From positions 1 to 24,672 of IMG/VR virus record IMGVR_UViG_3300021964_000506: 24,672 nt of DNA; one strand, given 5' to 3'. This DNA is from a virus. The position numbers and the translations under genes are program-made. This document shows, piece after piece, positions 1 through 32 of the stretch; within the stretch, counting starts at the first letter, position 1; each line of letters begins with the position of its first letter. The notes beneath the pieces were generated by a model that saw only the letters and a program-made list of their open reading frames with translations, was not told the DNA's origin and did no database searches.

Positions 1-32
1 CGCATTTCTGTTGCTGATGGTTTTGTCCACAT
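1..32 (-). CDS. pqqA: PqqA-like peptide, N-terminal fragment (runs off left edge)
   Basis: Only ten full codons and part of an eleventh are visible, reading [10 protein letters not shown](R) from an ATG at 32-30. A strong Shine-Dalgarno (AAAGGAG on the minus strand, plus-strand 42-48) sits about 8 nt upstream, so the start is credible. The residues align without gaps to bacterial PqqA starts of the form MWTKP-S-F-T-D-L-R, with conservative differences only. PqqA is the about 23-residue ribosomal precursor of the redox cofactor pyrroloquinoline quinone; its Glu and Tyr, crosslinked by the radical SAM enzyme PqqE, would lie outside the window and cannot be checked. The gene diverges from the replication block. 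A chance match over 11 residues is possible, but the exact MWTKP start with an RBS makes it a serious candidate. Confidence 0.6.
   Translation of the reverse strand, partial: [10 protein letters not shown]

Follow-up and report, generated by a model that had tools for sequence, protein, structure and literature searches.

The window (i.e., the whole stretch of viral DNA that was analysed, an entire record of 24,672 bases) begins within a minus-strand reading frame whose first 10 codons, counted from an ATG, occupy bases 32 to 3 and specify a PqqA-type N-terminus. Bases 2 and 1 read CG on the same strand, which makes codon 11 (CGN) an Arg codon with any third base, and codons 12–23 of this pqqA lie past the contig edge. 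The fragment, with 10 of the 23 PqqA residues, itself displays the M-W-T-K-P...T-(D/E)-(L/M)-R N-terminus of the family, and a degenerate 30-nt pattern for PqqA-type starts had a single match in the window, whereas 100 shuffles that preserved dinucleotides gave zero. A PqqA profile search of the window returned no match because only these 10 residues are present. An earlier sequence-only reading had proposed a PqqA-like start behind a strong ribosome binding site at this edge and strand, which is borne out by the translation and by an AGGAG motif 8 nt upstream; it had also correctly placed the crosslinked Glu and Tyr beyond the edge, with the leader part alone visible, as the record ends inside codon 11. 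The features at this end of the window are:

1–32, minus strand: 5′ part of pqqA (codons 1–10 and two bases of codon 11), from translation and complete orthologous copies
41–45, minus strand: Shine-Dalgarno sequence AGGAG, 8 nt 5′ of the pqqA ATG, from sequence
59–78, minus strand: inverted repeat ATATACT-N6-AGTATAT, just 3′ of the putative –10 box
85–90, minus strand: TATAAT within the stretch ATAGTGTATAATATACA, the putative –10 box of a pqqA promoter
147–317, plus strand: small ORF of 56 aa when counted from its ATG, divergent from pqqA and ahead of the primase gene
301–990, plus strand: DNA primase (PHROG 47, E=3.5e-27), anchor gene for the orthologous locus search
972–2222, plus strand: DnaB-like helicase, with 62% aa identity to that of phages MEP401/402

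The frame thus has viral genes around it, as an auxiliary gene of a phage should, with the primase, the helicase and a DNA polymerase nearby and the structural genes on the minus strand. The small ORF at 147–317 is missing in some close relatives. The family A DNA polymerase is split in two plus-strand ORFs (2209–3363, with the exonuclease and the start of the polymerase domain, and 3843–4568, with the remainder) separated by small ORFs, and the same split is present in MEP401/402.

Length and the Glu-x3-Tyr pair were assessed on orthologous loci, the window frame itself being cut. With the neighbouring primase as query, 11 relatives were retrieved from viral contigs, and all seven that reach past the locus (L245, L246, L248, L249, L250, L253, and L254) carry a complete 23-aa PqqA with E15-x3-Y19 at the same place and on the same strand. 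The DNA 5′ of the pqqA ATG is common to the window and its relatives, which keep pqqA at this site although their primases are down to 50% identical. In two of them (L245 and L249) the genes on either side of pqqA are on the plus strand, making pqqA a one-gene minus-strand unit, and in MEP401/402 it is the leading gene of a leftward late operon.

A wider search with the MWTKPxATEM pattern located at least 119 loci in viral contigs, and 118 of 118 complete ORFs encoded a 23-aa PqqA. Both the stop after 23 codons and the Glu-x3-Tyr pair, which the sequence-only reading had named as decisive for its proposal, were therefore found in 7/7 complete orthologous loci and in 118/118 complete viral homologues among the matches listed. 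The family search that it had likewise suggested placed the complete orthologue peptides well above the curated cut-offs of both PF08042 (43.3 bits, cut-off 21.1) and the NCBIfam equivalog TIGR02107 (40–44.7 bits, cut-off 20). By orthology, it is near certain that the window frame is a phage pqqA. The complete orthologues share with the PqqA family (PF08042, TIGR02107) the length of 23 aa, the MWTKP start and the (T)E(M)R-x-G-x-E-x3-Y core, but differ in being encoded by a single gene without pqqBCDE and in a Ser6 form absent from the 99 distinct host sequences listed.

Among 105 distinct viral pqqA nucleotide sequences in the matches listed, residues E15, Y19, R11, G13, and T17 showed zero variation, and over the codons left free by the search pattern pN/pS was 0.11 at a pS of 0.75. 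These values indicate that viral pqqA is under strong purifying selection, with synonymous sites nearly saturated. Phage pqqA is also a homologue of a host metabolic gene (Methylophilaceae PqqA) and, by the same ratio, is kept by selection, the other mark of an auxiliary gene.

A second pattern, for the TDLR form, retrieved 24 more viral contigs (L273–L296) with a PqqA of the ATDLRFGFEITMYIANR type, some of them longer than 100 kb. A pqqB start downstream of the TDLR-type pqqA was seen in 0 of these 24.

The end of the window coincides with the ends of two further contigs, whose names refer to metagenome 3300021958. One (L244) matches the window at every one of its 6,987 bases and ends at the same base; the other (L247) stems from a different strain, without the 69-aa ORF ahead of the primase gene, and ends at the exact edge base of the window. 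Assemblers stop in this way where the graph branches. Contigs of two different strains thus share one end base within pqqA (base 1 of the window, of L244, and of L247). Since the same end base recurs in different strains and pqqA is widely shared, the edge is probably an assembly-graph break at sequence common to many phages and hosts. The break was probably caused by pqqA itself, a short gene common to both, which would account for methylophage contigs breaking at this point.

Other genes in the window attracted attention as well. A B12-dependent class II ribonucleotide reductase (7589–9508) shortly precedes a PduO-type cobalamin adenosyltransferase (10013–10540, plus strand; PF01923, E=1e-54), so that the adenosylcobalamin needed by the phage reductase may be made by the phage itself. 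The adenosyltransferase is adjoined by a YspA/SLOG-type nucleotide-binding protein (PF10686; 9642–10016, plus strand). Six relatives of the adenosyltransferase with 73–95% identity were found in viral contigs, one contig (IMGVR_UViG_3300033183_000106) has the adenosyltransferase gene together with pqqA, and phage records gave only distant matches (<60% identity) in bacterial-looking contigs or unannotated pieces. Finally, a 1,841-aa protein (13369–18894, minus strand) with an HEIAH motif (HExxH, zinc-protease-like) and without PHROG match is possibly an internal virion protein.

The region upstream of pqqA was compared within the lineage and across the phage copies listed. The ATAGTGTATAATATACA run around the TATAAT box is invariant across seven aligned relatives, and the inverted repeat at 59–78 recurs throughout the lineage, although its spacer varies; this repeat is possibly an operator or an element of the 5′ untranslated region. 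Among the matches listed, TATAAT was present upstream of 61 of 121 phage copies (26 expected) vs. 4 of 129 host copies (12 expected), a Shine-Dalgarno motif preceded 116 of 121 phage copies (8 expected), and terminator-like sites followed 44 of 121 (1 expected). In the relatives, hairpins 3′ of the pqqA stop were more stable than shuffles (z of –3.6 to –7.2), and 43 of 100 phage copies were oriented against both neighbours. A consensus –35 hexamer was not found upstream of pqqA and is not above expectation, and a sigma-70 promoter with a –35 box was rejected on that ground. A role of the leader in mRNA structure was also rejected, its folding equalling that of shuffles (z –0.2). Judged from these motifs, pqqA in this lineage is a moron-like single-gene cassette with a candidate TATAAT-type promoter, a strong ribosome binding site and a downstream hairpin.

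The PqqA peptide was searched with tblastn against 50,697 phage records (INPHARED). This revealed pqqA in nine isolated methylophages (Venkman EXVC282S, P19250A, MEP301, MEP401, MEP402, and four Melnitz strains), i.e., all those found by the search, NCBI taxonomy having further methylophages, and in one environmental phage (MW202481). The carriers are of diverse descent, with podovirus-, siphovirus-, and T4-like phages among them, and apart from the MEP401/402 pair the isolates share 0 to 6 ORFs (with Melnitz and MW202481 compared in part); the cassette occupies differing sites in differing phages. The pqqA position is without annotated gene in Venkman, P19250A, MEP301, MEP401, and MEP402, and in Melnitz and MW202481 a hypothetical ORF is called antisense over pqqA (2961–3056 and 2067–2195 in contigs L258 and L259, respectively), which is a probable miscall. 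Two matches labelled ‘Acinetobacter phage MD-2021a’ were rejected as pqqA of a phage of non-methylotrophs, being mislabelled bacterial contigs with a full pqq operon; the record CAKLQF020000010.1, which bears this label, is bacterial chromosome, with polyphosphate kinase beside pqqBCDE.

The host assignment follows from both the phages and the peptide. Of the named phages, those closest to the window phage are MEP401/402, which infect OM43 (Methylophilales), and among the matches listed in genome contigs the MWTKPxATEM pattern was almost exclusively confined to Methylophilaceae or related Nitrosomonadales, which agrees with the methylotroph-like host suspected at the outset. Six sampled Methylophilaceae genomes contained 5–12 pqqA genes each and one pqqE above the cut-off (two in one genome), in agreement with the 3–12 pqqA copies vs. 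single copies of the other pqq genes reported for this family (PMC4109929). Like the phage genes, these solo host copies stand alone, encode the same peptide and have a strong Shine-Dalgarno sequence and often a downstream terminator, but they are without the AT-rich, TATAAT-bearing upstream regions of the phage copies. That only pqqA has been multiplied in Methylophilaceae suggests that precursor dose matters to them.

Phage and host peptides are closely related but distinguishable. The commonest phage PqqA is identical to the commonest host peptide, and positions 6 and 21 are more variable in phage than in host PqqA. Ser6, as in the window, occurred in 32 of 105 distinct phage vs. 0 of 99 distinct host sequences among the matches listed (p=4e-11, with kinship ignored). 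Among the matches listed, none of the 105 distinct phage nucleotide sequences was identical to a host copy, and 12 were closer to a host than to a phage neighbour. A count of host-to-phage transfers by nearest neighbour was dropped, since genes of 69–72 nt are too short to resolve them.

Partner genes were sought in the phages, as the sequence-only reading had advised for other pqq genes, and none turned up in those sampled: PqqE was found neither in the window nor in seven phage records, and host pqq-locus proteins used as queries gave no match in the sampled phage contigs. A complete pqqABCDE cluster is thus lacking in the window and the sampled phages, the window phage itself extending past its contig. 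A phage methanol dehydrogenase as partner of pqqA, as in an earlier report from Lake Baikal, was rejected, since a PQQ-dependent alcohol dehydrogenase occurred in 0 of 49 phage records. As far as the sampled sequence goes, the phage appears to add the precursor alone.

Virus-encoded PqqA as such was already known. One report concerns population VP_266 of Lake Baikal (PMC7678222), and another lists pqqA for viral contigs from reservoir sediment (PMC13188868); in both cases it was likewise read as an auxiliary metabolic gene. Those cases are isolated and metagenomic, whereas here the gene is linked to a defined cassette and to phages in culture that represent several lineages; moreover, the Baikal viruses are said to have a methanol dehydrogenase as well, unlike the 49 records searched here. 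Phage pqqA goes unmentioned in the descriptions of Venkman, Melnitz, MEP301, and MEP401/402, and no statement of pqqA as a common unannotated methylophage feature was found in the open literature searched (outside of which lies the original description of P19250A). What appears to be new is the near-constant, mostly unannotated pqqA in the methylophages found.

PqqA is consumed stoichiometrically in PQQ synthesis, while PqqB–E act catalytically. Because the enzymes are catalytic, host-encoded and present in about one copy, the consumable substrate would be the cheapest addition for a phage to make. We consider it probable that the window carries a genuine phage pqqA, as a one-gene, moron-like cassette that provides host PQQ synthesis with the substrate it uses up. 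PqqA would be made early in infection, and one molecule of it would be used per PQQ; host PqqD and PqqE would cross-link Glu15 to Tyr19 of the phage peptide, and a host protease, PqqB, and PqqC would complete PQQ. Holo methanol dehydrogenase, and with it energy and C1 carbon flow, could then be sustained as host transcription drops. In a phage that dampens host transcription, PqqA would be lost first, and a cassette of 69–72 nt would restore it. As to the effect on infection, we infer both expression and benefit to the phage; in hosts with 5–12 pqqA genes, a further copy may make little difference except where transcription of the host genes has ceased. The cross-linking of Glu and Tyr in PqqA by PqqE/PqqD is taken from work as cited in PMC9851590, and in gene-expression work on Gluconobacter cited in the review PMC8102297, growth reportedly improved when pqqA by itself or the set pqqABCDE was added.

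The sequence-only reading had left undecided whether the peptide is a substrate supplied to the host or a decoy. As a decoy or inhibitor, it would occupy PqqD/PqqE or the protease, lower host PQQ and redirect metabolism, and the greater variability at positions 6 and 21 and the phage enrichment of Ser6 among the matches listed could be seen in that light. However, a decoy is expected to lose the very Glu15 and Tyr19 that are invariant in the 105 distinct phage sequences listed, and the commonest phage peptide equals that of the hosts. Supply is thus favoured over the decoy, because the invariant residues are those becoming PQQ, and we regard the decoy as quite unlikely. In a virus-specific signalling or other modified-peptide pathway, host radical-SAM maturation would serve something other than PQQ. 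The lack of all other pqq genes in the sampled phages and the PqqE-like radical-SAM relatives in hosts (sub-threshold matches) would fit such a pathway, but with a phage core indistinguishable from host PqqA and scores that pass equivalog-level cut-offs it seems highly improbable.

Selection and distribution speak to the notion that pqqA merely hops from multi-copy hosts into phages and persists there as a neutral or weakly useful moron. Hosts do have many solo copies, and the cassette site differs between phages; yet a neutral passenger is difficult to reconcile with the low pN/pS at near-saturated synonymous divergence, with same-site retention next to strongly diverged primases, and with a pqqA in each of the nine methylophage records that the search found, which represent several lineages and for the most part have few genes in common, and we deem it unlikely. 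The ending of the contig inside a gene common to hosts and phages could, in turn, point to an error specific to the window, i.e., a chimera in which pqqA DNA from a host was fused to phage sequence, or divergence after codon 11. Such an error is very doubtful, as the window shares its Shine-Dalgarno sequence, promoter region, and inverted repeat with phage contigs that run into a complete pqqA, and its Ser6 is found in no host copy among the matches listed.

Substrate supply by a phage cassette has parallels in known systems. As with cyanophage psbA, a short-lived or consumed component would keep host energy metabolism running, although phage pqqA would supply a peptide that a host pathway uses up as its substrate instead of an enzyme or photosystem subunit. 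As with the morons of lambdoid phages, the cassette resembles an autonomous promoter-gene-terminator unit, often opposite to its neighbours, but its carriers are methylophages without annotated sign of lysogeny and the gene measures only 69–72 nt.

On balance, we lean towards PqqA supply being a near-obligate trait of Methylophilaceae phages, with repeated gains of a one-gene cassette that has escaped notice for its small size. As phage pqqA shows, auxiliary genes can be missed when gene callers impose a minimum length, and pqqA offers a short marker for methylophages in metagenomes. If the supply role is true, viruses would control a host cofactor via a consumable peptide substrate alone. Since methylotrophs are a main route of oceanic and freshwater methanol oxidation and their key enzyme needs PQQ, phage pqqA would be a simple lever with which viruses may keep C1 oxidation going in infected cells.
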